Assembly (NCBI RefSeq): GCF_900102815.1 | Contig: NZ_FNGF01000009.1 | Span: forward strand, 1 to 64,000 | Reading direction: 5' to 3' | DNA length: 64,000 bases | Source: Glycomyces sambucus | GTDB lineage: Bacteria > Actinomycetota > Actinomycetes > Mycobacteriales > Micromonosporaceae | Part shown: one piece after another, positions 6,015 to 64,000 of the stretch | Layout of the letters: every line of letters begins with the position of its first letter | How positions within the stretch are numbered: the stretch's first letter is position 1 | Translations under genes and position numbers: made by a program | Notes under the pieces: model-generated | The model's input: the letters and a program-made list of their open reading frames with translations, nothing else | The model's database searches: none | What the model was told of the DNA's origin: nothing

Positions 6015-6020
6015 TAGGGT
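6015..6020 (+). promoter_or_regulatory. -10 hexamer TAGGGT, leaderless start
   Basis: TAGGGT ends six bases before ATG 6027, with no ribosome binding site between them. Transcription would start at or next to the ATG. No convincing -35 element is visible. Confidence 0.55.
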
Positions 6021-6026
6021 CGGGTG

Positions 6027-7265: not shown

Positions 7266-7278
7266 ACCGACGCAGCCC

Positions 7279-7328
7279 GAGCACGGCCGCGGCCCGACCC
7301 CTGACCGGGTCGGGACGCGGCCGTGCTC
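7279..7328. terminator. Bidirectional hairpin terminator
   Basis: Two 22-base arms (7279-7300 and 7307-7328) pair with one mismatch around the six-base loop ctgacc. It lies between convergent genes ending at 7265 and 7342. It has no T-run, as is common for actinobacterial terminators. Confidence 0.8.
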
Positions 7329-7341
7329 GACGCGGCCCGTC

Positions 7342-8157
7342 CTACCGGAACGCCGCCGCGTTCCGCTCCGCCCAGGCGGCGAACGTGGTCGCGGGGCGGC
7401 CCAGGAGCCGTTCCACCTCGGGGCTGATGCGCTGCTCGGCGGCGCTCGGGTTGCCCATGACCTCCAGGGAGCCCTCCACGACCTCGGCGGGCCAGAAGGC
7501 GAGGAACTGCTCGTACGCCGCCTCCCGCGTCTGCTCGATGAACGCGACCGGCTCGCCGATGGCCGCGCCGATCGCCTCGGCCTGCATGCTCGGGGACACG
7601 AGTTCGGGGCCGCTGAGCATGTAGATCCGGCTGCTGTGGCCGTCCTCGGTGAGCACGGTCGCGGCGACCTCGGCGATGTCGCGCGGGTCGATGATCGGCA
7701 GGCCCACGTCGCCGAACGGCGCGGTCACGATGCGGTCCTGCCGGATCGAGTCCGTCCACAGGAGCGCGTTGGAAGCGAAGCCGTTCGGCCGCAGGATAGT
7801 CCACTCCAGACCAGAAGCGGTGAGGGCGTTGTCGTACGCCTGAACCTCCGGGCTCGGCCTGGTGGCCGCGCGCTCGGAGGAGAGGAGCACGACCCGGCCG
7901 ATCCCCGTGGCCTCGACCGCTTCGAGGACCGGCGCGATGTCGATCTCGTGGTCGCGGGTGAGCAGGAACAGCTTGTCCGCACCGGCGAAGGCGGCCGCGA
8001 GGGTGTCGGGCTTCGCGAGGTCGGCGACGCGGTGGGCGACGCCGGGCGGGAGCTCGGCCGCGCCGCGCGACACGGCGGTGACGTCCTGGCCCTTGGCGAG
8101 GAGCGCTTCGAGGAGCGGGCGGCCGACGTTGCCCGTGGCTCCGGTGACGACGATCAT
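7342..8157 (-). CDS. NmrA-like NAD(P)H-binding protein
   Basis: A 271-residue atypical short-chain dehydrogenase of the NmrA / NAD(P)H-quinone sensor type. The Rossmann motif is at the very start (VTGATGNVGRP, residues 4-14), and VLLSSERA and ILRPNGF follow the family pattern. There is no canonical YxxxK, consistent with a redox sensor rather than an ordinary dehydrogenase. It is divergent from an HxlR regulator gene, a very common pairing in which the regulator controls the NmrA-like partner in response to quinones or electrophiles. That functional link is inferred from family knowledge. Confidence 0.85.
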   Translation of the reverse strand: MIVVTGATGNVGRPLLEALLAKGQDVTAVSRGAAELPPGVAHRVADLAKPDTLAAAFAGADKLFLLTRDHEIDIAPVLEAVEATGIGRVVLLSSERAATRPSPEVQAYDNALTASGLEWTILRPNGFASNALLWTDSIRQDRIVTAPFGDVGLPIIDPRDIAEVAATVLTEDGHSSRIYMLSGPELVSPSMQAEAIGAAIGEPVAFIEQTREAAYEQFLAFWPAEVVEGSLEVMGNPSAAEQRISPEVERLLGRPATTFAAWAERNAAAFR

Positions 8158-8222
8158 CTGGGTTCCTTCCGTTGTCTTCCGTTGGAGGTGCAGAACCCAA
8201 GGTAGGAGCGAAACTCACTCTT

Positions 8223-8246
8223 GGTAAGGACGTACCTCGAGGTAAG
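8223..8246. promoter_or_regulatory. HxlR operator candidate
   Basis: The intergenic region between the NmrA-like and HxlR genes contains the perfect 12-base palindrome tacctcgaggta (8233-8244). Direct copies of ggtaag flank it at 8223 and 8241. The position, 11 bases before ATG 8255, suits autorepression by the HxlR protein. Confidence 0.55.
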
Positions 8247-50037: not shown

Positions 50038-50062
50038 GCCGCAACGGCTCCGGCCGTCCCGC

Positions 50063-50395
50063 TCAGGGGCGGCCGGCGGTCTCGGCCGTGATCCACTCCA
50101 GATAGGCCGGGTTCCCGGCCGTGATCGGGAGCATGACCACCTCGGGGACCTCGTAGCCGTGGCCGTCCCTGATGTGGGCCTCCAGATCGGGGTAGGCGTC
50201 GGCCGTCGTCTTCAGGACGACCCGCCACTCCTGCGCGGTGTCGACCTTGCCCTCCCACCAGTAGACGCTGCACAGCGGCCCGAAGACCTGCGCGCAGGCG
50301 GCCAGGCGGCCCTCGACGGCGCTGCGCGCCAACAGGGTCGCGGACTCCGCCGAATCGGTGGTGGTGACCACCTGGACGTGCTCGAACTCGGTCAT
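50063..50395 (-). CDS. cutA: CutA-like divalent cation tolerance protein
   Basis: A 110-residue protein of the CutA family: AESATLLARSAVEGRLAACAQV near the N terminus, SVYWWEGKV, WRVVLKTTADAY, and YEVPEVVMLPITAGNPAYLEWI at the end match it throughout. It forms trimers and is linked to copper and metal tolerance, although the molecular role is unclear. Start ATG 50395 is chosen by family length. Confidence 0.93.
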   Translation of the reverse strand: MTEFEHVQVVTTTDSAESATLLARSAVEGRLAACAQVFGPLCSVYWWEGKVDTAQEWRVVLKTTADAYPDLEAHIRDGHGYEVPEVVMLPITAGNPAYLEWITAETAGRP

Positions 50396-50452
50396 GACCG
50401 CCTCCAAACCACTTTGAGCGAGCCTATCGCCCATCGGGGCCGAGCAGGGAGG

Positions 50453-51130
50453 TTATTCGCTGGCCGTGCAGGGGACCGACGACGGCAGGTCGAAGTCCCA
50501 CTCGACCTCCGCCTGGAAGCCCGTCACCGTGTCCTCGCCGGGGTCGAGGCGCGCGTTCCAGTTCTCGGCGCCGTACCAGTCGCGGCCGAGGTCCTCCATG
50601 TTCCAGTGGTGGTAGATGTCGGCGTCGTCCAGGTCCAGGTCGATCTCCCAGTAGCCCAGCCGCTCGCCGCCGGTGTTGACGACCTCCACCGACACGTCCA
50701 CGGTGTCCTGCCACTCGTCGTCGAGGGAGAGGTACGCGACGCAGGAGTACGCCTCCGCGGGCGCCTCCTCCTCTTCGTGCTCCTCTTCCTCCTCGGGCGC
50801 TTCGTCTTCGGAGTGCGGGGCGCCGGTCGTGGGCGCGTGCGACGGGGAGGCGGACTCGGTGGGGGTGGCGGACGCCGAGGGCGACTCCAGCGCCGAACTC
50901 GACGCCTCCGCCGCGGCCGCGGCACTCGAACTCTCGGCCGCGCCCGAGGGCCACTCGGTCGTGGTCGCCGCGTCCACCGCGCTCACCGGCTCCCGGTCGG
51001 ACCCGCCGCCGAACACCCCGAGCTGCCACATCGCCACGAGCGCCACCACACCCGAGAACGCCCCGAGGATCTGGAGCAGCCTCCCGTGCAGGCGCCCGCC
51101 ACCGGGGGGCTCCGGTTCCGACCTGTGCAT
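50453..51130 (-). CDS. Membrane-anchored protein with a CBM2-like domain
   Basis: A 225-residue protein. A short cytoplasmic N terminus is followed by one transmembrane helix (about residues 22-40) and a low-complexity spacer (Ser/Ala/Thr/Pro, then about 15 acidic residues EEEEEHEEEE). The C-terminal domain (about 130-225) looks like a CBM2-type beta-sandwich: Cys near 130 and near 221 as the expected disulphide pair, VEVVNTGGERLGYWEIDLDL, and ENWNARLDPGEDTVTGFQAEV. There is no catalytic domain, so it may tether cells to polysaccharide or present enzymes. ATG 51130 has gaagg upstream; ATG 51145 is an alternative. Confidence 0.65.
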   Translation of the reverse strand: MHRSEPEPPGGGRLHGRLLQILGAFSGVVALVAMWQLGVFGGGSDREPVSAVDAATTTEWPSGAAESSSAAAAAEASSSALESPSASATPTESASPSHAPTTGAPHSEDEAPEEEEEHEEEEAPAEAYSCVAYLSLDDEWQDTVDVSVEVVNTGGERLGYWEIDLDLDDADIYHHWNMEDLGRDWYGAENWNARLDPGEDTVTGFQAEVEWDFDLPSSVPCTASE

Positions 51131-51561
51131 CCGACCGCCTTCCATTGAGGACGCGCACGCGGGTCCGCAATAGAGGACGCGCGCCGATCCGCCGGGCTCA
51201 GCCTACCTGGGCACCCGACCCCGGACAGTCCGCGCTGATTCGCCCCGATACCCGCTGAACTGGGATTTCATCCGCTCTCGCCCCGATTCGTCACCCCCGC
51301 GGAGGACACCCCGAACTGGTGGGGCGACCCGAAGTGGCCGCGCGACCCGACGGGACGGCTTCCGGGAACTCCGCCGACACCCGGGCCGCCCCATGGGTGT
51401 GCGCGGTGATCCCGTACCACGCAGCGCGCTATCCGCTCCGCCACGCGCGGGTCCTTCCCTCCTCATCGACTCGGCTTACCGCTCATGATGCGCCCCGTTA
51501 CGCTGCGGCGATTACCGGCCGTCCCGCGCCTTGTTCCGCCGTGGCCGGCCGCCGCCGGGCC
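51131..51561. other. Intergenic stretch of about 430 bases without a recognised gene
   Basis: The frame of the downstream molybdoenzyme is open back to 51319, but that part has no similarity to the family N terminus and is probably not translated. Imperfect direct repeats of gaggacgcgc (51146-51186) are the only structure seen. Confidence 0.45.
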
Positions 51562-51567
51562 TACACT
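51562..51567 (+). promoter_or_regulatory. -10 hexamer TACACT, leaderless start of the molybdoenzyme gene
   Basis: TACACT ends six bases before ATG 51574; no ribosome binding site lies between. Confidence 0.55.
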
Positions 51568-51573
51568 GGCCCG

Positions 51574-54141
51574 ATGAGCAAGGCTCCCGACTCCGACCCC
51601 GCCCAGGACGCCCCCACCGTCCACCGCCCGAAGGACCACGCCGTCGGCCTGCCCGCCGTGCTCAACTCGGTCCGGTTCGTCGGATCGCAGGCCGGGATCA
51701 AACGCGGCCTGCCGCTCCTGCGCGACATCAACCAGACCGGCGGCTTCGACTGCCCCGGCTGCGCCTGGCCCGAACCCCTCCACCGCCACCCCGCCGAGTT
51801 CTGCGAGAACGGCGCCAAAGCCGTCGCCGAAGAGGCCACCCGCCTGCGCGTCGACCCCGCGTTCTTCGCCGCCCACCCCGTCGCCGAACTCGCCGACAGG
51901 TCCGGGTACTGGCTCGGCCAGCAGGGCCGCCTCACCGAACCCGTCTACCTCGCCGAAGGCGCGACCCACTACACGCCCATCGGCTGGGACGACGCCTTCG
52001 CGCTCATCGCAGACGAACTCACCTCCCTCGACAGCCCCGACGAGGCCGCGTTCTACACCTCCGGCCGCACCAGCAACGAGGCCGCGTTCCTCTACCAGCT
52101 CCTCGCCCGCAAGCTCGGCACGAACAATCTTCCGGATTGTTCTAATATGTGCCATGAATCTTCGGGGTCGGCGCTGGCCGAGACCATCGGCATCGGCAAG
52201 GGCAGCGTCCTCCTCGACGACCTGTACCAGGCCGACCTCATCATCGTCGCCGGGCAGAACCCGGGCACCAACCACCCGCGGATGCTCACGGCCCTGGAGA
52301 AGGCCAAGCACGCCGGGGCCAAGATCGCGACGGTCAACCCCCTTCCCGAGGCCGGACTCCAGCGCTTCAAGAACCCGCAGACCGCCCGCGGGCTCGCCGG
52401 GCGCGGCACCGAGCTCACCGACCTGTTCCTCCAGATCAAGGTCGGCGGCGACCTCGCCCTGTTCAGCCTCCTCAACCGGATGCTCCTGCGCGCCGCGGCC
52501 ATCTCGCCCGACGTCATCGACCACGACTTCATCGAGCGGTACACCCACGGCTTCGACGCCTTCGCCGCCGCCCACGCCGAGGGCGACGACGACACCGTCC
52601 TCGCCGACGCCGTCCGCCGCACCGGCGTGCCCCTGGAGCAGATCGAACGCCTGCTCGGCATGGTCCTGGCCGCCGACAAGATCGTCGTCTGCTGGGCGAT
52701 GGGCCTGACCCAGCACCAGCACGCGGTCCCCACCATTCGCGAGATCGTCTCCTTCCTTCTCCTGCGCGGCAACATCGGACGCCCGGGTGCGGGCGTCTGC
52801 CCGGTGCGCGGCCACTCCAACGTGCAGGGCGACCGCACGATGGGCATCTGGGAGCGGATGCCCGACCGCTTCCTCGACGCCCTCGGCGCCGAGTTCGACT
52901 TCAAGCCGCCCCGCGACCACGGCCTCGACACGGTCGACACGATCCGCGCCATGCGCGACGGCCGCGTCAAGGTCTTCGTCGCCATGGGCGGCAACTTCGT
53001 CGCCGCCACCCCCGACACCACCGCCACCGAGGACGCCATGCGCGGCTGCCGCCTCACCGTGCACGTCTCCACGAAGCTGAACCGCTCGCACGCCGTCACC
53101 GGCGCCCGAGCCCTCATCCTCCCGGCCCTCGGCCGCACCGACATCGACATGCAGGCCGCCCTGCCGGCCGACCTGGCCGCGCTGGCTTCACCGGCCGCAC
53201 CGGCTTCGGCCGGCTCGGCTGCACCTGTCGCACCTGCTTCACCGACTACCCCGGCCGTGCCGGCCTCACCAGCCGACTCAGCCGCGCCGACCGGTCCGGC
53301 CTCGGCGACCGACCCGACCTCGCCGGAACACCCCGCTCGCACCGACGGCGCCGCCACCGCTGCCGCTTCCACCTCCGCTGCCGCTTCCGCCTCCACCTCT
53401 GCTGCCGCCACCGCCGACCGGTTCCATGAGCAGTTCGTGACCGTCGAGGACTCGATGGGGATCGTCCACTCGTCCCGCGGCGGCGTCGCGCCGCTCAGTC
53501 CGCACATGCGCAGCGAGGTCGCGATCGTGGCCGGGCTCGCCCGCGCCGTCTTCGGCGACGCCGACGAGGTCCCCTGGGAGGAGTTCACCGCCGACTACGA
53601 CCGCGTGCGCGACCGCATCGAGCGGGTCGTCCCCGGCTTCGCCGACTACAACGCCCGCGCCCGCGTGCCCGGCGGGTTCGCACTCCCGCACGCGCCGCGC
53701 GACGAACGCGTCTTCCCCACGGCCACCGGCAAAGCCAACTTCACCGTCAACCCGGTGACCTCACCCGAGGCCGGTCCGGGCCGACTGCTGCTCCAGACCC
53801 TGCGCAGCCACGACCAGTTCAACACCACCATCTACGGACTCAACGATCGCTACCGCGGCATCCACGACGGCCGCCGCGTCGTCCTCGTCAACCCCGACGA
53901 CGCCGCCGAACTCGGCCTGACGGACGGCGACTACCGCGACCTCGTCAGCGAATGGACCGACGGCGACCGCCGCGCGCCCCATTTCAAGATCGTCCACTAC
54001 CCGACCGCCCGCGGCTGCGCCGCCGCGTACTACCCCGAGACGAACGTGCTGGTCCCGCTCGACTCGGTCGCCGAGTTCAGCAACACCCCCACTTCCAAAT
54101 CCATCGTCGTCCGCTTCGAACCCGACAGCGGCCCCGCCTGA
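51574..54141 (+). CDS. FdhF/YdeP-type molybdopterin oxidoreductase (formate dehydrogenase-like alpha subunit)
   Basis: An 855-residue cytoplasmic molybdoenzyme. GGFDCPGCAWPEP near residue 65 is the family N-terminal cysteine motif. NNLPDCSNMCHESSG (184-198) is the invariant active-site segment, GQNPGTNHPRML and GNIGRPGAGVCPVRGHSNVQGDR bind molybdopterin, and QTLRSHDQFNTTIYG begins the C-terminal MGD-binding domain. The family is formate dehydrogenase-like, but actual substrates are mostly unknown. An Ala/Ser/Pro/Thr-rich block of about 85 residues (about 535-615) interrupts the otherwise contiguous segment between RTDIDMQA and QFVTVEDSMG. FdhD, its usual sulphurtransferase partner, follows after 156 bases. 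Confidence 0.88.
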   Translation: MSKAPDSDPAQDAPTVHRPKDHAVGLPAVLNSVRFVGSQAGIKRGLPLLRDINQTGGFDCPGCAWPEPLHRHPAEFCENGAKAVAEEATRLRVDPAFFAAHPVAELADRSGYWLGQQGRLTEPVYLAEGATHYTPIGWDDAFALIADELTSLDSPDEAAFYTSGRTSNEAAFLYQLLARKLGTNNLPDCSNMCHESSGSALAETIGIGKGSVLLDDLYQADLIIVAGQNPGTNHPRMLTALEKAKHAGAKIATVNPLPEAGLQRFKNPQTARGLAGRGTELTDLFLQIKVGGDLALFSLLNRMLLRAAAISPDVIDHDFIERYTHGFDAFAAAHAEGDDDTVLADAVRRTGVPLEQIERLLGMVLAADKIVVCWAMGLTQHQHAVPTIREIVSFLLLRGNIGRPGAGVCPVRGHSNVQGDRTMGIWERMPDRFLDALGAEFDFKPPRDHGLDTVDTIRAMRDGRVKVFVAMGGNFVAATPDTTATEDAMRGCRLTVHVSTKLNRSHAVTGARALILPALGRTDIDMQAALPADLAALASPAAPASAGSAAPVAPASPTTPAVPASPADSAAPTGPASATDPTSPEHPARTDGAATAAASTSAAASASTSAAATADRFHEQFVTVEDSMGIVHSSRGGVAPLSPHMRSEVAIVAGLARAVFGDADEVPWEEFTADYDRVRDRIERVVPGFADYNARARVPGGFALPHAPRDERVFPTATGKANFTVNPVTSPEAGPGRLLLQTLRSHDQFNTTIYGLNDRYRGIHDGRRVVLVNPDDAAELGLTDGDYRDLVSEWTDGDRRAPHFKIVHYPTARGCAAAYYPETNVLVPLDSVAEFSNTPTSKSIVVRFEPDSGPA

Positions 54142-54297
54142 TCCGCCCGGCACACCTCCCCTCATCCGAGCCCGGCGACCGTGAGCTTCGGCAACGATCC
54201 TTGCGGCCCCGGCACCCGCCGCGCTATGCAGGCAAGTGAACCAACCGCAACCTGAAGCCAACCTAAAACCGCCTGAAGGGCATTTAAGGAACCGACC

Positions 54298-55119
54298 ATG
54301 GGCCGCGTCACCGTCCGCCGCAAGACCACCCGCCTCGCCGCCGGCGAGCGCACCTCGCGGATCGACACCCTTGTGGTCGAGGAACCCCTGGAACTGCGCG
54401 TCGGCGGCGAATCCCTCCAGGTCACCATGCGCACCCCCGGCGACGACTTCGACCTGGCCGCCGGATTCCTCCTGTCCGAGGGCGTGATCACCAAGCCCGC
54501 CGACATCGTGAGCATGCGCTACTGCGCCGGCGTCGACGCCGACGGCGAGCAGACCTACAACCTCCTCGACATCGCCCTCGCGGGCGGTGTCGCGCCGCCC
54601 ACCAAGGCCGCCAAGCGCAACTTCACCGTCACCTCCGCCTGCGGCGTCTGCGGCAAGGACAGCCTCGAAGACGTGCGCACCAAGGCGATCTGGGACCTCA
54701 CCGAGGACGCGACCGTGGTCGACCCGAACGTCCTCGCCGACCTCCCGGCCCGGCTCCGCAAGTCCCAGAAGATCTTCGACAAGACCGGCGGCCTCCACGC
54801 CGCCGCCCTCTTCACCGCCGACGGCGACCTCCTCACCGCCAAGGAGGACGTCGGCCGCCACAACGCCGTCGACAAGGTCGTCGGATGGGCCCTCCAGCAG
54901 GGCCGCCTCCCCTTGCGCGGCACTGTTCTCGCCGTCTCCGGCCGGGCCTCCTTCGAACTCGTCCAGAAGGCCGTCATGGCCGGCATCCCCGTCCTCGCCT
55001 CGGTCTCGGCCCCGTCCTCCCTCGCCGCCGACCTCGCCGACGAGTCCGGCCTCACCCTCGCCGGCTTCGTCCGCGGTGACACCATGAACCTCTACACGCA
55101 CGACGGCCGCGTCGCCTGA
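54298..55119 (+). CDS. fdhD: FdhD, sulphur carrier for formate dehydrogenase
   Basis: A 273-residue protein. FdhD passes sulphur from a cysteine desulphurase to the Mo-bisMGD cofactor and is required for FdhF-type activity. The paired cysteines in SACGVCGKDSL are the functional CxxC. Family motifs EEPLELRV, TPGDDFDLAAGFLLSEGV, TGGLHAAALF, EDVGRHNAVDK and SGRASFELVQKA are all present. The ATG has aagga 8 bases upstream. Its position after the molybdoenzyme gene supports that assignment. Confidence 0.95.
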   Translation: MGRVTVRRKTTRLAAGERTSRIDTLVVEEPLELRVGGESLQVTMRTPGDDFDLAAGFLLSEGVITKPADIVSMRYCAGVDADGEQTYNLLDIALAGGVAPPTKAAKRNFTVTSACGVCGKDSLEDVRTKAIWDLTEDATVVDPNVLADLPARLRKSQKIFDKTGGLHAAALFTADGDLLTAKEDVGRHNAVDKVVGWALQQGRLPLRGTVLAVSGRASFELVQKAVMAGIPVLASVSAPSSLAADLADESGLTLAGFVRGDTMNLYTHDGRVA

Positions 55120-55140
55120 ACGGCGTGTCGCCACCAGAAA

Positions 55141-55154
55141 TTACCGCCCGGTAA
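55141..55154. promoter_or_regulatory. Inverted repeat TTACCGCCCGGTAA
   Basis: Five-base arms ttacc/ggtaa around gccc, about 40 bases before ATG 55195. It resembles the element at 42751-42764. Confidence 0.5.
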
Positions 55155-55194
55155 CTAACCTCTCCCGCAGGACGACACCTGAACGGGGGACACC

Positions 55195-55719
55195 ATGTGC
55201 AAGCCGCAGCACCGAACCCGAGTTGTGCTGGACGAATCCGAGATCCAGCGCCGCCTGACCCGACCCAAGCCGCCCACCCTCGCCGAACGCTACGCCCAGG
55301 CCGCCACACCGGACGAACGAGACCGTTTCTACAGCAACGAGATCCGTCGGTCCGAGCCCGCGCCGCCCAGGTCCACCGGCCGACCGCCGTCCACGGTCTG
55401 GGTCACCAAGCCCATCCTGAAGACCCGCGGCTGGACCGACGCCGCCATCCGCGAGTTCCTGCCCCGGCCCGAACGCCACTACTCAAACCCGCACGTCCAA
55501 GGCCGCCGACCGATGCCCATCTGGAGCGCCCGCACCGTCGGCCGGATCGAAGCCACCGACGAATGGCGCCTCTGGCTCGCCCAATCACTCGCGCGCCGGA
55601 ACACCACCCTCCGCGAGCTGGCCGAATCCATCAGAGAGCATGCATTCAGACATAGGGCGAAGACGGCGGATAGCGCCATCGCCCATTACCGGGATGCGCG
55701 ATTCAAAGCGAGTCGATGA
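55195..55719 (+). CDS. Protein of unknown function with a WTDAAIREFLP-type domain
   Basis: A 174-residue basic protein. The centre reads RGWTDAAIREFLPRPE-x-YSNPHVQGRRPMPIWSARTVGRIEATDEW, a pattern I have met in many actinomycete proteins of unknown role; it is probably a small helical or wHTH-like module binding nucleic acid. The C-terminal part is Arg-rich and helical. There is no catalytic motif. The gene sits between fdhD and a 36-base palindrome that precedes the defence-like operon. The last codons and stop (gcgagtcgatga) are repeated immediately downstream. Confidence 0.6.
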   Translation: MCKPQHRTRVVLDESEIQRRLTRPKPPTLAERYAQAATPDERDRFYSNEIRRSEPAPPRSTGRPPSTVWVTKPILKTRGWTDAAIREFLPRPERHYSNPHVQGRRPMPIWSARTVGRIEATDEWRLWLAQSLARRNTTLRELAESIREHAFRHRAKTADSAIAHYRDARFKASR

Positions 55720-55732
55720 GGCGAGTCGATGA

Positions 55733-55768
55733 GAACGGGGCGCGGTCCGATCGGACCGCGCCCCGTTC
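55733..55768. terminator. Perfect 36-base palindrome (terminator candidate)
   Basis: Halves 55733-55750 and 55751-55768 are exact reverse complements with no spacer, 13 bases after the preceding stop codon. No T-run follows. Confidence 0.7.
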
Positions 55769-56041
55769 CGCAACCTCTATAGTGTGCTGATGATGTTGCG
55801 ACGATGAACGCCTGACCTGGTATCTGCCGAATATCGGATTGTACGCGGTTCGCGACACTTGCCGGTCATACATGCGTTCGATTATTGTCGTTCCGTAATT
55901 GCCCGGTCGATCAAGATCAACTTCCGTGCCGATTCTGAAAGGCTTCTTCAGCCGACTCCAGGGCTGACAAGGACTGGTCGGAACGGTATCGTGCCTGTAT
56001 TCCCATCGCCTCCCCTTGCGCATGAAACGGAAACCCCTTCC
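55769..56041 (+). promoter_or_regulatory. A+T-richer leader region with the promoter of the wHTH/ATPase/AIPR operon
   Basis: CTGACA (55964-55969), a 17-base spacer and TATCGT (55987-55992) form a good sigma-70-type promoter about 50 bases before ATG 56042. The region is markedly less G+C-rich than its surroundings, in line with horizontally acquired DNA. Confidence 0.6.
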
Positions 56042-56680
56042 ATGTCCGACATTGCATTCACCGTCCCCGAACTCAATCTCCTGCTCTCCCTCGTGCACCT
56101 GCACGGGGCCGGGGACACCCATGCCTTCAAGACGGCCTTCGGCTACGACAAGGTCGAGTCCAACATGCGCGAGCCGTTGGTCGAGAAGGGCCTGGTCACC
56201 GTGGACAAGACCGTGCGGCCCTTCAGGTACGAGTTGACCGACGCCGGATGGCGGGCCGCGCGCCCCGCCCTCACCGAACCCGCGCAGACCGGGCTGAGCA
56301 AGCGCACCGCGCGCATCATCTGGGCGGTGCTGCGGGACGTCGCCACCCACATGGGCAGGACCGGCATCGAACTCGCCGACGTCTACGCGGGCCAGCCGGT
56401 GGAGGAGGTCGAACCGGAGACCCTGGGCGACCGCGTGCTCAGCGCCTACCGCGAACTGTGCGGCGAGCGGCCGGACTGGGTGCCGCTGCTCGCCCTGCGA
56501 AAGCGGCTCGGCGGCGAGGACCGGTCGGAGGTCGACAAGTCGCTCGTCGAACTCCATGCGGCACGGGAGATCGAGCTGATCCCCGAGTCCAACCGGGGGA
56601 TGCTGACCGACGAGGACCGTGACGCCGCGATCTGGCTCGGAGGCGAGCACCGGCACCTGATAAGGATCGGGGAGCGATGA
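56042..56680 (+). CDS. Winged-helix protein, first gene of a defence-like operon
   Basis: A 212-residue protein with two predicted winged-helix modules. The first (about 5-75) reads ELNLLLSLVHLHGAG...GYDKVESNMREPLVEKGLVTVDK...RYELTDAGW, a MarR-like wing. The second (about 130-212) reads WVPLLALRKRLGGEDRSEVDKSLVELHAAREIELIPES and ends in LGGEHRHLIRI, a C-terminal pattern I associate with small partners of defence ATPases. There is no enzymatic motif, so it probably senses DNA or loads the ATPase. Its stop overlaps the ATG of the ATPase gene by four bases. The frame is open upstream to 55859, but ATG 56042 is where coding-like sequence begins. Confidence 0.75.
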   Translation: MSDIAFTVPELNLLLSLVHLHGAGDTHAFKTAFGYDKVESNMREPLVEKGLVTVDKTVRPFRYELTDAGWRAARPALTEPAQTGLSKRTARIIWAVLRDVATHMGRTGIELADVYAGQPVEEVEPETLGDRVLSAYRELCGERPDWVPLLALRKRLGGEDRSEVDKSLVELHAAREIELIPESNRGMLTDEDRDAAIWLGGEHRHLIRIGER

Positions 56681-59600
56681 GCAGCGCCATCGACGCTTTG
56701 CGGATGGCTCCGAGCGACTTCGCGGTCACTCCGGACGACATCTGGGACGAGGACTCCCGCCCGCATGTGCAGGGGATCAACGAACCTGCGATGCGGGCGA
56801 TCGCGACGCAGATCGAACTCGCCGAACGCAGTGCGAGAGCCAGCGTGTACGGACTGCCGATCATCGGCGAGGGCGGTCGCGGCAAGAGCCACCTTCTCGG
56901 CCAGGCGCGCATCATGGTCCAGCGGCGCGGCGGCTTCTTCGTGCGGTTCAACCTGCTCCATCTGGACCAGTTCTGGTCGAATCTGGCTGGCAGCTACCTG
57001 TACGCCCTGAACATGCCCCACCGGCGAGCCGAGACCGGTCTCGCCCACCTGCTCGAGACCTTGGCCGACCGTGCCGAGGTTCCGGACAAGGTCCGCCGCC
57101 AGATCCTCGGAGACCGCCAGCCCGAGAACGAGTCGATCTCGAGGTTCATCGAGTCGGTGCGCGGGCTCGACCCGACGCTCGCGGGCACCCGTAAGACACT
57201 GCGCGCGTTGATCATGCTCCACTCCCGCGATGAGATCACCGCGAACGCGGGAGAGGACTACCTGAACGGCGGCGAGGTGGATTTCGATCCGGAGATCGGG
57301 ATGACCCGGTCCACTCCGAAGCCGCCCAGAGAGGTCGTGCGCGACCTCTCCCAGCTGATGTCGATCTGCGGTGCGACGGTGGTCGCCGTCGACCAGGTCG
57401 ACGACATCGTGAGAGCCTCGATGAGCGGTGCGGTCGAGAAGCACCGGGAGAGCGCGGGCCAGCTCCTCGACATGCTCGGGATCAACCTCATCGACGTGCG
57501 GGACGAGACTCGAAGGACGACGGTGTTCCTCGCGTGCCTCTCGAACACCTGGCGGGAGTTCGGAAGGCACACGACCGCGACGATCGTGCAGCGGTTCGAG
57601 GCGCCCATCCATCTCGACGACTCGCTCCCGAGCGGGGAGGTCGCGGCCGCACTCCTCGCCGAAGTGCTCAAGCCGGTTTACCGGGACTCCGGGTACGAAC
57701 CGCCGTATCCGAGCTACCCGTTCCCCGTGGAGCGACTCGAACAAGCGGTGAGCTTCAGCCCGCGCCACCTGCTCCGGGCGGCCAGCCTGCACCTTCGGAC
57801 GTGTGTCGCCGCAGGAGTCGTGACCGAGATCGAGCGGCTCGACATCATCGACGTGCCCCTGCTCCCGCCACCGGTTGCGGCGGCGACCGAGGAGTTCGGC
57901 GAGATCGATGAGCGGTTCGCGAGGTATCGGGCGGCGGAGACGGTCGAAAGCGGCGCCGGAGTCGAGGCGGAGTACCGGGTGCTGCGCCCCTACCTCGGTG
58001 CGGGGCTGAACGCGTATCGGGTCGAGTCCGGTCGCGATGCGGAGCAGTTCGTCGTACAGCAGTCGGTGGGACCCAAGCAGGGCTACCACGTCGAAGTCCG
58101 GGACAAGAGCGGTGCCAGGGCACGGCGGTGGGTGTTCCGAGCGATCGGCACCGACCAGGGTGCGGCGGTGCTGCACCGGGTGCGCCAACTCTACAACTGG
58201 GCGAAACTCGGCGAGGACAACCCGATCGAGGAGGACCACGGTGTGCTCTGGGTGACGGCCCGACGCGACCGGTGGCGGAACTGGACCCCTGGGACCCAGG
58301 TATGGGAGTGGGTCGAACGGTTCGGCGGCGCCGGCATGGAGATCCTGACCTCCGAAGAGGACTTCAAGACCTTCGGAGCCCTGCACCGGATGGAGACCGA
58401 GCGAGTGCCGGGCTACGAGCCCTGGCTGCGCAGTCGACGCCCCGCCTCCCGGACCAACCTGATGCAGGCGGTCTTCGGTCCGCCGCCCGAGACGACGGCC
58501 GGACCCCGTGGGCCGGTGACGCCGTCCCAGACCGGTCCGGTCGTGCAGGGGAAGCACGACAGCGCCTTCAGCTCGGCGAGCGACCCCAGGTTCCTCGACA
58601 TCCCACTGCCGCACGCCGTCGCGAAGGCGACCGCTCGCGGCGGGAACGTCAATGTCGGGGCCGTCGGCGACGGGGCCGTCAGCCATGTCGGCTCGATCGG
58701 GGAGTCGGCCAAAGGCCAGGTGAGCATGGCGGAGGTGATGTCCCACCACCCCGAGCCGCACGCCCCGGCGATCGGCCGGCGCGAGGACGAGCGGTCCGTC
58801 CACGCCGACCTCGCGGCGATGGCCAAGCACACCGTGGTCTTCGCAGGTTCGGGATCGGGCAAGACCGTGCTGCTGCGGCGGATCATCGAGGCCGCTGCGC
58901 TGCAAGGCGTCTCGGCTATCGTGCTCGACCCGAACAACGACCTGTCCCGGCTGGGCCAGGCATGGCCGACCCCGCCGGAGCACTGGCTCGACGGGGACGG
59001 CGCCTGGGCCGACGCGTACGCCGACGCGGTCGAGGTCGTCGTCTGGACCCCCGGCCGCAGCCGCGGCAGGCCGTTGAGCTTCCAGCCGCTGCCCGACTTC
59101 TCCGCCGTCGCGAGCGATCCCGACGAGTTCGAGATCGCCGTCGACACCGCCGTCAATTCACTGGTCCCGCGGGCGCGCATCGGGAAGGCCACCCCGAAGG
59201 ACGACCATTCGAAGGCCGTCCTGAAGCAGGCGCTGGCCGCCTACGCCCGCGACGGCAGCTCCGACTTCGAGGGCTTCCTGCTGTACCTGGAGGACCTCCC
59301 CGACGAGGTCAGCTCCATCGGGAAGGCCGCCGACATCGCCGCGAAGATCGCCTCCACGCTCCGCGCGGCCGTCATCAACGACCGCGTGTTCGCCGGTGCG
59401 GGGAGTCCGCTCGACCCGAGCGTGCTGCTGACGCCCTCCTCCGGCAGGAAGGCCCGCGTGTCGGTCGTCAACTTCATCGGCCTGCCTACCGAGGAGCAGC
59501 GGCAGGGCTTCGTGAACCAGCTCGAACTGGCGCTGTTCTCCTGGGCCAAAAGGCATCCGGCGGTCGACCGGCCGCTGTCGGGGCTGCTGGTGCTCGACGA

Positions 59601-60000
59601 GGCGCAGACGCTGGCGCCGTCGAGCGGCCCGTCGCTGTGCCTGGACTCGACGCTCGCGCTGGCGTCGCAGGCTCGGAAGTACGGGCTGGGGATGCTGTTC
59701 GCGACCCAGGCGCCGAAGGGCGTCCACAACCGGATCGTGGGCAACTGCGCGACGCACTGGTACGGGCGCATCAACGCGCCGTCGCAGATCGCGGCGGCGA
59801 ACGAGGTGGCGCAGAGCAGGGGCGGGACCTCGGTGGACCTGGCGCGGCTGTCCGCCGGCCAGTTCTACCTGGCCGCCGACGGCAGGCCGACCGAGCGGGT
59901 CGACGTGCCGATGTGCCTGACGTACCACCCGCCGACCGCGCCCACGGTGGAGGAGATCCTGGCCGCCGTGGGGTCGACCGGTGAGGAGCCGGGCGAGTGA
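56677..60000 (+). CDS. Two-P-loop ATPase with C-terminal HerA/FtsK-like domain
   Basis: A 1107-residue protein. The N-terminal AAA-like module has Walker A GEGGRGKS (64-71) and Walker B-like VVAVDQVDD (Asp239). The central region (about 430-620) is mixed and unrecognised. A glycine-rich segment near 650 (RGGNVNVGAVGDG) leads to the HerA/FtsK-like motor: Walker A GSGSGKT (724-730), LDPNNDLSRLG, Walker B LLVLDEAQ (Asp974-Glu975) and LFATQAPKGVHNRIVGNCATHWYGR, the HerA arginine/sensor region. HerA-type motors occur in SIR2-HerA and related defence systems, but this double-ATPase form is not one I can name. It overlaps the wHTH gene by four bases and the AIPR gene by four bases, so the three are translationally coupled. 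Confidence 0.85.
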   Translation: MSSAIDALRMAPSDFAVTPDDIWDEDSRPHVQGINEPAMRAIATQIELAERSARASVYGLPIIGEGGRGKSHLLGQARIMVQRRGGFFVRFNLLHLDQFWSNLAGSYLYALNMPHRRAETGLAHLLETLADRAEVPDKVRRQILGDRQPENESISRFIESVRGLDPTLAGTRKTLRALIMLHSRDEITANAGEDYLNGGEVDFDPEIGMTRSTPKPPREVVRDLSQLMSICGATVVAVDQVDDIVRASMSGAVEKHRESAGQLLDMLGINLIDVRDETRRTTVFLACLSNTWREFGRHTTATIVQRFEAPIHLDDSLPSGEVAAALLAEVLKPVYRDSGYEPPYPSYPFPVERLEQAVSFSPRHLLRAASLHLRTCVAAGVVTEIERLDIIDVPLLPPPVAAATEEFGEIDERFARYRAAETVESGAGVEAEYRVLRPYLGAGLNAYRVESGRDAEQFVVQQSVGPKQGYHVEVRDKSGARARRWVFRAIGTDQGAAVLHRVRQLYNWAKLGEDNPIEEDHGVLWVTARRDRWRNWTPGTQVWEWVERFGGAGMEILTSEEDFKTFGALHRMETERVPGYEPWLRSRRPASRTNLMQAVFGPPPETTAGPRGPVTPSQTGPVVQGKHDSAFSSASDPRFLDIPLPHAVAKATARGGNVNVGAVGDGAVSHVGSIGESAKGQVSMAEVMSHHPEPHAPAIGRREDERSVHADLAAMAKHTVVFAGSGSGKTVLLRRIIEAAALQGVSAIVLDPNNDLSRLGQAWPTPPEHWLDGDGAWADAYADAVEVVVWTPGRSRGRPLSFQPLPDFSAVASDPDEFEIAVDTAVNSLVPRARIGKATPKDDHSKAVLKQALAAYARDGSSDFEGFLLYLEDLPDEVSSIGKAADIAAKIASTLRAAVINDRVFAGAGSPLDPSVLLTPSSGRKARVSVVNFIGLPTEEQRQGFVNQLELALFSWAKRHPAVDRPLSGLLVLDEAQTLAPSSGPSLCLDSTLALASQARKYGLGMLFATQAPKGVHNRIVGNCATHWYGRINAPSQIAAANEVAQSRGGTSVDLARLSAGQFYLAADGRPTERVDVPMCLTYHPPTAPTVEEILAAVGSTGEEPGE

Positions 60001-61712
60001 ACGAGATCATCCGCGAGCGGATCGCGGCGTTCCGGGAGAAGGCGGAGCTGCCCGAGCTGGACGACGCGAAGCTGTTCGAGGCGTTTGCCGCGCACTGCGT
60101 GCTGCACCAGTTCCACGAGGACGAGTTCAACGCCGGGCAGCACCGCACCGGCGGCGGCAACGACCTGGGTGTGGACGCGTGGGGGATCGTGGTCAACGGC
60201 GACCTCTACTCCGACCTCGACGGCGTCAAGGGCGCGGTCGAGTCGAGCCGCGAGATGAACGTGGTCGTGATCGTGGTGCAGGCCAAGCAGAGCGCGAACT
60301 ACGAGGGCAAGGTCGTGGCCGACCTGGCCGACAACCTGCGCCAGATCTGCGGCCGCGCGCCGATCGCGTACACGGCGTCGCCGGAGATCCGCGAGCTGCA
60401 CGAGGCGCTCGGCCTGGTCTACGACCACCACCAGAAGCTCACCGAGAACAGCCCGCGGCTGGAGGCCCGCTACGTCCACTGCGGCGAGGAGGCCAACGCC
60501 GACCTGGAGCGGAAGTGCCGGTCGGCCGAGGACGCGCTGGACGAGCTCGGGCGGTTCCACTCGATCCGGTTCGAGGCGGTCGGGTGGCGGCGGCTGAGCC
60601 AGCTCTACCAGCGGTCGCAGCGGAAGATCAACGTCGCGTTCGAGTGGCCGAGCAAGGTCGCCATCCCCGCGATCGCGGGGGTGAAGGAGGCGTGGATGGG
60701 GACGATCCCGGCGTCGGTGTTCGTCGAGCGGCTGCTGGTGGACGAGGGCGGCAGCATCCGCAAGTTCCTGTTCGAGGACAACATCAGGGACTTCCAGGGC
60801 GAGTCGAACGAGGTCAACAGCGGGATCGCGGAGACGCTCGCCGACCCCGCCAGGCGCAAGCGCTTCGTGGTGCTCAACAACGGGATCACGGTCCTGGCCC
60901 GGAGCTTCGACATCTCCGGTTCCGAGTGCCACATGAGCGACTTCCAGATCGTGAACGGCTGCCAGACCGGGCACGTGCTGTTCGCGCACCGGGAGCAGCT
61001 CGCCGACGTCCACCTGAAGCTGACGGTGATCGAGACCGAGGACGAGGTGATGTCGGACGCCATCACCGTGGCCACGAACCGCCAGACGCAGATCCCGGCC
61101 GAGGACCTGCGGTCCAACCGGCAGATCCATCGCGAGATCGAGGAGTTCTTCCAGACCGGGCACGCTCCCCGCGACCTGTACTACGAGCGCCGCAGCGGCC
61201 AGTACGACGCGCGCTCGGTGACGATGACGCGGGTGGTGAAGCAGAACCAGCTCGTCCAGGCGTACGCGTCGGTGTTCCGCGGGCAGGCGCACGAGGCGAC
61301 GCGCCCCGCGAAGCTGCGGCGGGACCCGGCGGTGCGGATCTTCCACCCCGAGGGCCACGCCGTCGCGTACTACACCGCCGCTTCGATCTGGTACCAGGTG
61401 GAGTGGCTGTTCCGCAACAACCGGGTCGAGGGCCGGTGGCGCCCGGCGCGGTTCATGCTCATGGCCGCGGTGGTGGCTCGGTTCTCGGGCGGCGCGGCGC
61501 TCCCGGCGGGGCGCGCGAAGGCCGAGCGGTTCTGCGAGGGGCTGCTGGCCCAAATCTGGAACCGCGACGAGGTGGAGCGGCTGGTCAGCCTGATGGTCGG
61601 GCGCCTGGAGGCGATGGCCGAGGCGGACCCGTCGACGCAGCGGCTCAGCGACCTGGTGCGGACCAAGGGGTTCACCGAGCGGTTCCTGAAGGAGGCCGCG
61701 GGGGTCGAATAG
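59997..61712 (+). CDS. AIPR-family protein with N-terminal PD-(D/E)xK-like nuclease core
   Basis: A 571-residue protein of the AIPR (abortive infection phage resistance) family. Residues 51-97 read GGGNDLGVDAWG ... VVVIVVQAKQS; Asp60 with Gln95-x-Lys97 fits a PD-(D/E)xK-type nuclease core in which Gln stands for the middle acid. AIPR motifs follow: IRDFQGESNEVNSGI, RFVVLNNGITVLARS, FQIVNGCQTGHVLF, and VATNRQTQIPAEDLRSN. The C-terminal half is helical. The start is GTG 59997 inside the ATPase stop (GTGA). It is probably the nucleolytic effector of the operon; nuclease activity is inferred. Confidence 0.85.
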   Translation: MNEIIRERIAAFREKAELPELDDAKLFEAFAAHCVLHQFHEDEFNAGQHRTGGGNDLGVDAWGIVVNGDLYSDLDGVKGAVESSREMNVVVIVVQAKQSANYEGKVVADLADNLRQICGRAPIAYTASPEIRELHEALGLVYDHHQKLTENSPRLEARYVHCGEEANADLERKCRSAEDALDELGRFHSIRFEAVGWRRLSQLYQRSQRKINVAFEWPSKVAIPAIAGVKEAWMGTIPASVFVERLLVDEGGSIRKFLFEDNIRDFQGESNEVNSGIAETLADPARRKRFVVLNNGITVLARSFDISGSECHMSDFQIVNGCQTGHVLFAHREQLADVHLKLTVIETEDEVMSDAITVATNRQTQIPAEDLRSNRQIHREIEEFFQTGHAPRDLYYERRSGQYDARSVTMTRVVKQNQLVQAYASVFRGQAHEATRPAKLRRDPAVRIFHPEGHAVAYYTAASIWYQVEWLFRNNRVEGRWRPARFMLMAAVVARFSGGAALPAGRAKAERFCEGLLAQIWNRDEVERLVSLMVGRLEAMAEADPSTQRLSDLVRTKGFTERFLKEAAGVE

Positions 61713-61830
61713 TCCATGTTGCGGCGACGGTTCGGGTTGCTTAGGGTGGAGGTTCGCCTGAACGGGGGAGCCGCGGCACCGCGGCGACCGCTACATTGGG
61801 TCCCTGCTCCGTGACCCACCGGGAGGCGCG

Positions 61831-63045
61831 ATGTACGCGGTCATCGACGTGGAGACGACCGGCCTGTTCAACCGGGACCGGATCGTCGAGATCGCGATCG
61901 CCCAGCTCGACGAGGACGGCCGCGTGACCGCCTCCTGGGAGACGCTCGTCAACCCCCGGCGCGACCTCGGACCCCAAGAGCTGCACGGGGTCCGCGCGGC
62001 CGACGTGCGCAAGGCGCCCACGTTCGACCGGATCGCCGGAGACGTGGTTGAACTGCTCCGCGGCCGCGTACCGGTCGCCCACAACCTCGCGTTCGACAGC
62101 CGCCTCCTCGCACACGAGTACCGCCGCATGGGATGCGAGATCCCCGACCTCGGGCACTTCGGCGTCTGCACGATGCAGTGGGCCGACCACTTCCTGCCCG
62201 AGGCCGGGCGCTCCCTCGCCGACTGCTGCCTGGCCGGCGGCATCGCCAACGACCGGCCGCACGAGGCCATGTCCGATGTGCTCGCCACCGCCGAACTGCT
62301 CGCCCTGTACCTCAACAGCATGGGGCCGGTGCCGCTGTGGCACGACCGCGGCCTGCCCCCGGCCCTGGCGGTGTGGCCCGCGATCCCGGCGTGGGCGACG
62401 CCGCCGGTGCGCCGCGGCGCGGGCGCCGCGGACGGCGGCGAGTTCCTGGCGCGGCTGGTCGCCCACCTCCCGCGCGTCCCCGACCCGCCCCAGGCCGACC
62501 TGTACCTCGCCCTCCTCGACCGGGCCCTGGTCGACCGGCACATCTCCGCCACCGAGGCCGACGAACTCGTGGCGCTCGCGGCCGGCCTCGGCATCGACCG
62601 CGCTGCGGCGCTCGCACTCCACCGCGGCTACCTGCGGTCATTGGCGGGCGCCGCGCTGGCCGACGGCGTGCTCTCCGGCGCCGAACGCGACGACCTCGCA
62701 CGGGTCGCCGACCTGCTCTCGCTGCCTCCGGAGGCGGTCGCCGAAGCGCTCTCCGGCGACGCCGCGCCCGTCCCGGCCGGGGGCGGCTTCCGCCTGAAGC
62801 GCGGCGACATCGCGGTCCTCACCGGCGCCTTCGCGGAGTCGAAGTCCTTCTGGGCCGCCCGCCTCGAGTCCGCGGGCCTGGAGGTGGCGGCGACGGTCAC
62901 GAAGAAGACGTCCCTCGTGGTCGCCGCCGACCCGGACTCCATGTCGGGCAAGGCGTCCAAGGCCCGCCAGTACGGCATCCCGGTCATCGGCGCCGACTCG
63001 GTCGACGCGGTCCTGGCGCGCATGGCCCCGAGATCGCGGGTCTAG
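61831..63045 (+). CDS. DEDDh exonuclease with a central TerB-like region and BRCT domain
   Basis: A 404-residue protein. Residues 1-165 are a DnaQ-like 3'-5' exonuclease: DVETTG (Asp6, Glu8) for motif I, AHNLAFDSRLL for motif II and HEAMSDVLATAEL for motif III with the His-x4-Asp of the DEDDh type. A helical middle (about 210-310) with YLALLDRALVDRHISATEADELVALAAGLGI resembles TerB-like domains. The C terminus (about 320-400) is a BRCT domain (GDIAVLTGAFAES, TKKTSLVVAADP, ARQYGIPVIGADS). The combination suggests processing of DNA ends or repair. ggaggcgcg precedes the ATG. It may or may not belong to the upstream defence operon, 118 bases away. Confidence 0.87.
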   Translation: MYAVIDVETTGLFNRDRIVEIAIAQLDEDGRVTASWETLVNPRRDLGPQELHGVRAADVRKAPTFDRIAGDVVELLRGRVPVAHNLAFDSRLLAHEYRRMGCEIPDLGHFGVCTMQWADHFLPEAGRSLADCCLAGGIANDRPHEAMSDVLATAELLALYLNSMGPVPLWHDRGLPPALAVWPAIPAWATPPVRRGAGAADGGEFLARLVAHLPRVPDPPQADLYLALLDRALVDRHISATEADELVALAAGLGIDRAAALALHRGYLRSLAGAALADGVLSGAERDDLARVADLLSLPPEAVAEALSGDAAPVPAGGGFRLKRGDIAVLTGAFAESKSFWAARLESAGLEVAATVTKKTSLVVAADPDSMSGKASKARQYGIPVIGADSVDAVLARMAPRSRV

Positions 63046-63061
63046 ATCCGGACCGGCCGCC

Positions 63062-64000
63062 TCACTTCACATACAGGCCCGCGAACTCCTCGTGGACCCA
63101 GCGGACCCGGTCGCGGTCGAGGACCCGGACCAATCCCGCGAAATCGGGGTCCTGCTGCTTCAGCATCGTGTGCAGGAGGTGGATCTGGCGGCGAGTCCGA
63201 TGGTCGAATCCGGTCGCTTCGAAGGCCGGATCGGTACCGGTGCCGTCGGCCAGTTCGGTGGCGCTCGAGGCGAGCTCCTTGGCGCCGAGCGCGGCCAGCG
63301 CGGCCTCGTTCTCGATGCCCTGCCAAACCGTCGCCTCAAGTCCTTCCTTCGCACCGACGGGTACGAAGTCGGCTCCCAGCCGAAGCAGTCTCGCCGTGAG
63401 GTTGATCCACGGTCGGGCTCGGACCAGCCAGTCCCTGTCGATGTCGAGCGTGTAGACGCCTTTGCCCGGGTCGTCGCAGAGCCGGTGCACCGGCCGCTTC
63501 GAATGCTCGCAGTAGAGGACCACCCGGATGCGGTGCTGCACCAGACCTCTGACCCGCGGACCCGACCCGATCCGCTCCACCGTGAACAGCCGGGGACCTT
63601 CCATGCCCTCGTCGGCGAGCAGCCTGAACCCCTGCTCGAACTGCTCTTCGAGCCGGGTCGTCACCTCCGTGACCACGCGGTTCATCGCAGCGCTGACGTG
63701 CGACCGCGTCGCCGAACCCTGCTCCTGGACCCCATGCCGGAACGAGTCGACGTCGGACTCGAAGGATTCGAGCAGTGCCTGGATGCGGTCGAGCTGGGTC
63801 TGGATGCCCGCCTCGATCTCACCGTCGGACTGCGGTCGGGAGGCGGTGATCGCTCCCAGTTCGCCGATCAGCGCGTCGAGGGACACCATCCGGTTGCATC
63901 GGCTGCAGGCGGCGCCGGCATGGCCCTCGGCCTTGAACGACTGGAGCCGTTCGAGCTCGAACCACATCGATCCCGTCGCCGCGGGATCCGGAGCGGAGCA
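63062..64000 (-). CDS. C-terminal part of a large protein, COR/Roco-like region (truncated by the window)
   Basis: The frame is open from the window edge at 64000 to the stop at 63062 (about 312 residues visible), so the ATG at 63967 is probably internal. Visible features are a CSRC zinc-ribbon-like pair near the start, a long coiled coil (GEIEAGIQTQLDRIQALLES...VTTRLEEQFEQG), and a beta-rich segment ending RVVLYCEHSKRPVHRL...DIDRDWLVRARPWINL. I associate the CEHS...RDWLVxxxPW pattern with C termini of large bacterial Roco (Roc-COR) or NTPase signalling proteins. The upstream part would have to be seen to confirm it. It is convergent with the exonuclease gene. Confidence 0.65.
   Translation of the reverse strand, partial: CSAPDPAATGSMWFELERLQSFKAEGHAGAACSRCNRMVSLDALIGELGAITASRPQSDGEIEAGIQTQLDRIQALLESFESDVDSFRHGVQEQGSATRSHVSAAMNRVVTEVTTRLEEQFEQGFRLLADEGMEGPRLFTVERIGSGPRVRGLVQHRIRVVLYCEHSKRPVHRLCDDPGKGVYTLDIDRDWLVRARPWINLTARLLRLGADFVPVGAKEGLEATVWQGIENEAALAALGAKELASSATELADGTGTDPAFEATGFDHRTRRQIHLLHTMLKQQDPDFAGLVRVLDRDRVRWVHEEFAGLYVK

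Follow-up and report, generated by a model that had tools for sequence, protein, structure and literature searches.

Genes for an Orc/CDC6-type AAA+ ATPase, a HerA/FtsK motor, and a restriction endonuclease (REase) were predicted by Rakesh, Aravind, and Krishnan (2024; PMC10853773) to form a "HerA/FtsK capture" class, which in a subset also carries a gene with multiple winged helix-turn-helix (wHTH) domains. The main text of that paper describes two active REase families, one of them AbiJ-like, and mentions TIR on Orc/Cdc6 genes in neighborhoods independent of HerA; the accessible text of a 2026 sequel (PMC12839542) restates the class and has no occurrence of AIPR or TIR. Here we compare with this class a three-gene locus (genes A, B, and C) of Glycomyces sambucus, located within the first 64,000 nucleotides of contig NZ_FNGF01000009.1 (assembly GCF_900102815.1), a stretch hereafter called the window. 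Other systems with related parts are SIR2-HerA (Nezha) and DUF4297-HerA, in which two genes provide a free HerA motor and an NADase or nuclease effector, and the AIPR/AbiU proteins, which have been linked to abortive infection.

Across 100 loci, the overlapping genes A and B are hardly ever separated, and the third gene beside them is one of several unrelated effector-like types. We interpret the locus in the window as a widespread two-gene core that takes interchangeable effectors, here in its AIPR form, and predict from its sequence, with a probability of about 0.6, that it represents one version of a modular system directed against invaders.

A coupled gene pair with a varying third gene

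The three genes, with lengths from translation of their open reading frames (ORFs), are as follows.

56042 to 56680, forward strand: gene A, 212 residues, with a weakly matched N-terminal winged helix and a better-conserved second half (PGxWVxLAxLR...IGGxxxHL), a fast-evolving partner of B
56677 to 60000, forward strand: gene B, 1107 residues, an N-terminal AAA-type ATPase fused to a HerA/FtsK/TrwB-like DNA motor
59997 to 61712, forward strand: gene C, 571 residues, an AbiU/AIPR-family protein and the proposed effector

Both overlaps, A/B and B/C, are exactly four bases long (shared ATGA and GTGA junctions), as an earlier note on this DNA had described. In all five comparisons with other Glycomyces loci pN/pS (the ratio of nonsynonymous to synonymous differences) was below 1 for A (0.55-0.68), B (0.24-0.47), and C (0.42-0.59), which marks the reading frames as selected at the protein level; the range for the neighboring fdhD was 0.29-0.56.

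We scanned 84,980 species genomes and found at least 573 stretches encoding B relatives. The best 80 of these, ranked by similarity to the window's B and all with actinobacterial titles, were combined with loci of relatives and the window into 100 dereplicated loci; because sampling was by best similarity, the shares of effector types given below are not those of a random sample. The 110 sources (L051-L159 and the window) lost seven duplicates and three stretches without a B call by the simple gene caller (L067, L078, and L079, the last being no more than the stretch that follows the window). L067 has A, B, and C in order by six-frame reading, and L077/L078 are contigs from a single genome, with C lying at the boundary between them; neither case is counted among the AIPR loci. 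Neighbors were sought within five genes per side, fewer at contig ends.

A is the gene immediately upstream of B in 98 of the 100 loci (exceptions: L110 and L111), and the two genes overlap or abut in 85 (gap of -4 in 65, -1 in 19, and 0 in 1). The third gene is of the DUF559 type in 46 loci, AIPR in 17, DUF4365 with PDC-M02B in 6, TIR with ParA-TIR in 5, WD40-STAND in 5, and CARF-type in 5, with none recognized in 16. No locus has more than one of six marker genes within the five genes on either side. The three genes, put forward together as one candidate system in the earlier note, do not keep together as a fixed set: C adjoins A and B in only 17 of the loci, and the trio as an obligate unit is rejected because the third gene varies.

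The DUF559 nuclease gene lies upstream of A-B in its 46 loci (Pfam: E = 1.8e-11 for one member), and E250, D284, and E295-x-D297 are invariant in all 20 proteins aligned from a set of 47. The AIPR gene lies downstream in its 17 loci. Upstream again are the DUF4365 (PDC-M02A) and PDC-M02B genes in six loci, one of which (L158) looks broken, and the genes for a TIR protein and a ParA-TIR protein in five, profiles having been run on one member of each type; the glutamate of the TIR motif WCLAE is kept in 3/3 aligned proteins (three of the five). A CARF-HEPN gene occurs in three of the five CARF-type loci together with genes for a UvrD helicase and a giant DruE-like helicase (by profile scan in one locus and by clustering in the others), and the class is a loose one, with L059 included on one weak hit and L052 reaching a contig end. 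AbiU/AIPR, PDC-M02, CARF-HEPN, and TIR are linked to defense by the profile library or the literature. At least 4 of the 16 loci with no recognized effector are cut by contig ends or broken: L077, L097, and L056 lie at contig ends, and L110 has a DUF559 gene three genes upstream of a split A. Another of the 16, L061, has an Mrr nuclease gene 632 bp downstream.

Some further neighbors were observed. The WD40-STAND protein (up to 1342 residues) is encoded beside A-B in L055, L065, L100, L107, and L141 as a divergent pair with a Trypco1 protein (~110 residues), and the pair may be either an effector or a neighbor. The CARF-HEPN, DruE-like (~2000 residues), and UvrD genes belong to a second Glycomyces A-B lineage (L051, L053, and L063; profiles run on L053), in which L051 and L053 also carry a DrmC-like phospholipase D (PLD) gene and three small genes lacking assignment. 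In L146 (Actinokineospora; positions 5344-8246) two overlapping genes, for 491 residues and for a MutS_V-containing protein of 476 residues, end 83 bp upstream of A-B and are possibly a further effector type. A-B pairs with no recognized effector include L092, L103, L113, L118, and L137, four from Mycobacteriaceae and one from Gordonia.

Distribution and descent

Among 61 genomes (that of the window and 60 relatives), A was found in 25, C in 15 (13 with a long match, 10 of those Glycomyces), and B-like matches in 39, the weak ones being other HerA/FtsK-like proteins. Phylum-wide, A was present in at least 7 of 396 genomes, that of the window included, a lower bound since seven candidates were scored per genome; one of these matches was weak and partial. 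An AbiU-type C also occurs in genome G227, where the profile search for B found nothing, so C need not depend on A and B.

In a quick LG+G4 tree of 97 B sequences (long branches: L066, L052, and L059), the effector types fall into blocks. With "none" treated as a state, 17 changes were counted, against a mean of 48.6 for shuffled labels (as low in 0 of 200 shuffles). Counted for each type against all others, the changes were 10 for DUF559, 4 for AIPR, 3 for M02, 2 each for CARF and WD40, and 1 for TIR; when the "none" rows were set aside, 6 changes remained, one above the least possible 5 for six types. By these counts, one effector type has given way to another on at least five or six occasions, after which each type was passed down together with B. 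Pairwise distances of B and C were strongly correlated in 16 AIPR loci (0.96; 0 of 2000 permutations as high), as were those of A and B (0.91) and of A and C (0.91), with shared descent of the hosts contributing to the B-C value.

Gene C as a predicted nuclease effector

Gene C contains two regions.

59997 to 60617, forward strand: predicted PD-(D/E)xK nuclease, C residues 1-207 (E28, GGxxDxxxD60, Q95-A-K97), from residue conservation
60771 to 61316, forward strand: AIPR domain, C residues 259-440 (NNG 294-296, FQIVNGCQT 316-324, ATNRQT 359-364), most residues invariant in 13 sequences

C matches AIPR in Pfam (E = 9.7e-42) and the PADLOC profile for AbiU over nearly its whole length (E = 5.3e-105, 350.6 bits; residues 3-566 on profile positions 4-533 of 537). 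The D60, Q95, and K97 singled out by the earlier note as PD-(D/E)xK-like are invariant in 13/13 sequences (12 of 25 C references, duplicates included, and the window), and so are E28, G52-G53, and D56, which that note had not listed. This N-terminal signature is what we take to be the pattern of Mrr-like PD-(D/E)xK nucleases. The Mrr_cat profile itself was found in 1 of the 13 sequences (E = 0.022), beside six unrelated families with similarly weak scores; a sequence search of C against the Protein Data Bank (PDB) gave no hits. The structural model of C has a predicted local distance difference test (pLDDT) score of 80 and a predicted template modeling (pTM) score of 0.47.

Architecture of genes A and B

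Gene B is divided into four regions.

56782 to 57816, forward strand: AAA-type module, B residues 36-380 (Walker A K70; D239-Q240-x-D242; invariant R306), from an AAA_16 match, invariant columns, and pLDDT mostly at least 84
57886 to 58476, forward strand: alpha/beta domain followed by helices, B residues 404-600, its topology compatible with a catalytically dead REase and a wHTH
58495 to 58755, forward strand: low-confidence linker between the two ATPases, B residues 607-693 (pLDDT < 50)
58768 to 59976, forward strand: HerA/FtsK-like motor, B residues 698-1100 (FAGSGSGKT with K729; DEAQ 974-977), from DUF87, mad8, and Foldseek

The two P-loop modules reported previously, an AAA-like one ahead of a HerA/FtsK-like one, were both recovered. 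The DUF87/HerA central domain matched residues 707-947 above its gathering score (E = 1.2e-7), and AAA_16 matched residues 57-160 under its gathering score (E = 1.3e-5); across 56 aligned B sequences there is no variation at K70, K729, D974-E975 (of the second Walker B), or, in the first module, D239-Q240-x-D242. The AlphaFold2 model (mean pLDDT 82, pTM 0.55) comprises the AAA-like module, the middle domain, the linker, and the motor, and the structures closest to the motor by Foldseek were TdpAB, HerA, SIR2-HerA, and the conjugative TrwB (E from 3.8e-10 to 7.1e-8 among the 50 matches listed). The best PADLOC profile for B was mad8 (E = 5.2e-20), and HerA profiles also matched the motor.

In the same model, the elements of residues 404-557/600 run helix-helix-strand-strand-strand-helix-strand-helix-strand, an order that we take to be that of the restriction-endonuclease fold. 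The name "inactive REase" for residues 404-600 is a reading of the model rather than a result, since the domain has no conserved acidic catalytic set (40 of the 56 B sequences aligned) and gave no hhalign profile match to the N-terminus of C or to DUF559, two predicted REase families.

For A, the double winged helix suggested before is retained in its first half: residues 12-78 weakly match wHTH proteins of the PDB (AspA, E = 0.00086; ZitR, E = 0.0042; MarR, E = 0.0048), and in profile searches this region also resembles the wHTH tails of CARF and DUF6293 proteins. Six of the 60 PDB matches listed are wHTH regulators and the rest are calmodulins or calmodulin fusions (E = 0.0015-0.013), which score about as well and which we read as chance, so that the wHTH support for A is weak. 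The second winged helix is a deduction from the pattern of the second half. That second half is the most conserved portion of A across 45 aligned rows (44 of 99 A references and the window), with a mean column entropy of 1.8 bits at residues 129-212, 2.1 at 1-76, and 2.6 between. A has the lowest identity of the three proteins in all five Glycomyces comparisons (0.56-0.60) and the highest pN in all five; its pN/pS is highest in four, C being above A in L074. The conserved second half of A may dock to B, and the first half would then read the target.

Comparison with described systems

We read the locus as belonging to the Orc/CDC6-coupled HerA/FtsK capture class, with C as the predicted nuclease effector. 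Judged by the main text of PMC10853773, both have a HerA/FtsK motor and would also share an AAA+ ATPase, a nuclease, and the fast-evolving gene with several wHTH domains that a subset of the class carries in its neighborhood, and the inactive REase placed in that class between the AAA+ core and the wHTH would suit B residues 404-600. The motor is the best matched of these parts, DUF87 being above its gathering score and HerA/TrwB the closest structures (best E = 3.8e-10). For the AAA+ part the Pfam match is below the gathering score and the Walker motifs are invariant; for the active REase the signature of C is invariant, with the one Mrr_cat match (0.022 in 1/13) and no fold match; for the multi-wHTH gene, one wHTH is weakly supported in A, which has the lowest identity in 5/5 comparisons. 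What sets the locus apart, judged by that main text, is that AIPR, AbiU, and DUF559 have 0 occurrences there. A and B fit the class in outline, and the AIPR form of the A-B core would be a variant of a computationally predicted class.

The suggestion that no named system has this composition is partly upheld: PADLOC profiles include no system that covers A, B, and C together, and no description of this AIPR arrangement was found, but the architecture had been predicted as a class in 2024 and C is a whole-length AbiU match (5.3e-105). Our literature search, with most subscription papers and all bioRxiv preprints outside its range, returned no description of AIPR with HerA, AbiU, or phage, none of DUF559 in an anti-phage role, and none of HerA-CDC6-REase beyond the class of Rakesh et al. 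The accessible text of PMC9122126 names AIPR once, in the legend of cassettes in P4 satellites, and the accessible texts of PMC7159879, PMC10952713, and PMC12948488 contain nothing on the A-B pair.

Other systems share single parts. The motor of B matches HerA structures from complexes of the SIR2-HerA and DUF4297-HerA kind; unlike their free HerA, it is fused behind an AAA module and has a wHTH partner and other effectors, and membership was rejected because the antiphage HerA models scored 16 bits against cut-offs of 800 and 850, with no SIR2 or DUF4297 in A to C. The whole-length AbiU match belongs to gene C alone, and here C is an operon partner of A and B. MADS, whose gene set is mad1-mad8, shares the motor through mad8 and was rejected since no other mad profile matched A, C, the downstream gene D, or the neighbors tested. 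MzaE of MzaABCDE is an AIPR protein that partially matches C, at 54.4 bits against a cut-off of 1050, and with no other Mza profile matched this system was rejected as well, as was BREX or BREX-related capture (no BREX profile among six locus proteins and 10 neighbors).

Genomic setting

Of the 21 other Glycomyces genomes, 9 have the trio, which in G020 is divided by the end of a contig. In L069 and L071-L074 it lies, as in the window, downstream of fdhD with one small ORF between. This site beside fdhD, filled in the window, is empty in the relative G003, where fdhD and gene D are direct neighbors at a distance of 86 bp (L184) and the trio is on another contig. A plasmid of Methylobacterium aquaticum (L160), in another phylum, carries DUF559-A-B, as do Tsukamurella and Nonomuraea records.

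Gene D (61831-63045) encodes a DEDDh exonuclease with TerB-like and BRCT parts, with a near full-length match to PADLOC PDC-S48 (E = 6.9e-157), and is present in 12 of 22 Glycomyces genomes. It was rejected as a fourth member because it lies directly beside fdhD without the trio in G003 and near fdhD without the trio in G005 and G014. Ten neighboring proteins had no PADLOC match.

Two features precede the trio.

55733 to 55768, no strand assigned: perfect 16-bp hairpin between the stop codon of an upstream 164-residue ORF and the trio
55964 to 55992, forward strand: putative promoter-like site, CTGACA-17-TATCGT, 49 bases 5' of the A start codon, matching 9 of 12 consensus positions (consensus match only)

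GC content is 0.58-0.60 in two windows over 55500-56249 and 0.656-0.778 in every other window of 50000-64000, which bears out the A+T-richer region noted earlier, and the promoter-like site lies inside it; 2 sites of such quality were found in 7 kb (both strands), against 0.3 expected. The hairpin region (55715-55790) folds with -41.3 kcal/mol (z = -5.0; 0 of 200 shuffles equally stable). The hairpin has no T-run and is absent from the list of the terminator scan; it is possibly a transcriptional boundary.

Elsewhere, the A-B pair lies inside a ribosomal-protein cluster, between rplN and rpsQ, by annotation in Tsukamurella and by gene sizes and protein starts in Rhodococcus kin (L161, 3520-12558, and also L191, L109, and L110). 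A DUF559 gene is present at most of these ribosomal-cluster pairs. In some Glycomyces loci a CBM_2 + DUF6055 gene closely follows C (L069, 10634-12265; L071, 7368-9098); the window lacks it, and it seems to have no link with the system.

Proposed mechanism and alternatives

Beyond the coupling of A and B, the HerA-like motor, and the change of partner from locus to locus, the mechanism is one that we infer. A and B would form an ATP-driven surveillance complex on DNA that activates an effector after engaging invading DNA. The winged helix of A, in the fastest-evolving protein, would recognize some property of foreign DNA or of DNA in complex with protein, and the N-terminal AAA module of B (Orc/Cdc6-STAND-like) would act as an ATP switch for loading or licensing the motor. 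The HerA-like motor, which presumably forms a ring, may engage DNA under injection, packaging, replication, or transfer, and its engagement would activate the bound effector, here C, whose PD-(D/E)xK domain would cut nucleic acid while its AIPR domain links C with the complex or with a ligand. Restriction or abortive infection would result.

Retention of catalytic signatures by the effectors (C, 13/13; DUF559, 20/20; TIR, 3/3 of the proteins aligned) is consistent with a modular anti-invader system. A number of observations weigh on the other side. The lysine of the QxK motif is lost in one of five aligned DUF4365 proteins (L117; five of six aligned), and 16 of the 100 loci have no recognized effector, 7 of them from Mycobacteriaceae, Rhodococcus, or Gordonia; two further loci of an unbiased sample, L189 and L190, both in genomes of the window's order, are A and B alone. 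Among 494 Foldseek matches of the C model to the PDB up to E = 10, none reached 0.001, and the accessible part of a 2012 paper describes the AIPR N-terminus as a HEPN RNase; the E28/D60/Q95/K97 signature is ill suited to HEPN, and the fold is still a predicted one. Most wHTH-like PDB matches of A are no better than the chance-like calmodulin rows, and no match confirms the Orc/Cdc6 and inactive-REase assignments of B. A single change per type mostly suffices for the tree counts, which do not support repeated back-and-forth swapping. Among the flanking proteins tested, only gene D, judged separate, had a PADLOC match, and the search of viral and phage collections returned no record with B. The defense role is a prediction from sequence.

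Of the explanations that compete with the modular system, pure restriction by capture, as in the model of Rakesh et al., is the strongest, if on balance unlikely: A and B would pump foreign DNA into C for shredding, with no suicide signal. This published pump-and-cut model accounts for a motor and a nuclease-like gene in one operon and for the DUF559 or AIPR genes of 63 of the 100 loci. The TIR form fits it uneasily: in five loci the place of the effector is taken by TIR proteins, which are NADases in other systems and would not act by cutting pumped DNA. Since a TIR pair is able to stand in the nuclease's place, A and B probably transmit an activation signal rather than only feeding DNA to a nuclease, and the analogy with SIR2-HerA and DUF4297-HerA, where a HerA motor goes with an NADase or a nuclease, points to such a signaling role.

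In a second alternative, C (AbiU) is an independent abortive-infection toxin with A and B as its regulator or antitoxin, and the toxin is released when a phage shuts off the host. PADLOC lists AbiU as a single-gene entry, an AbiU-type C is present in G227 where no B was found, and partner types vary, all of which suits this account; a 1107-residue two-motor ATPase would be a costly antitoxin, and A-B pairs have no recognized effector in 16 of the 100 loci, and we regard it as improbable. The effectorless pairs also count in favor of a third account, in which A and B serve in DNA maintenance or segregation (HerA/FtsK, Orc-like, AspA-like wHTH) and the nucleases are incidental neighbors, as does the best wHTH match of A, AspA (0.00086), a segregation protein. 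We give this account very little credence, given the patchy presence of A (25/61 genomes; at least 7/396 phylum-wide) and the mutually exclusive neighboring genes from defense families.

We advance tentatively, and at rather less than even odds, the broader proposal that A and B are a general-purpose invader sensor that serves effectors of unrelated chemistry: three nuclease families or more (AIPR-linked, DUF559, and DUF4365), a TIR NADase pair, and possibly WD40-STAND and CARF-HEPN. The pair would then define a large unnamed immune family centered on actinobacteria, in which the HerA/FtsK motor is the detector and not the executioner. If the modular reading is right, the core, which occurs naturally in nuclease and TIR versions, would permit a direct, side-by-side test of whether defense HerA/FtsK motors are DNA pumps or signaling sensors, AIPR/AbiU proteins would gain a candidate activator, and actinobacteria would gain an added defense family, with at least 573 stretches encoding relatives of B.

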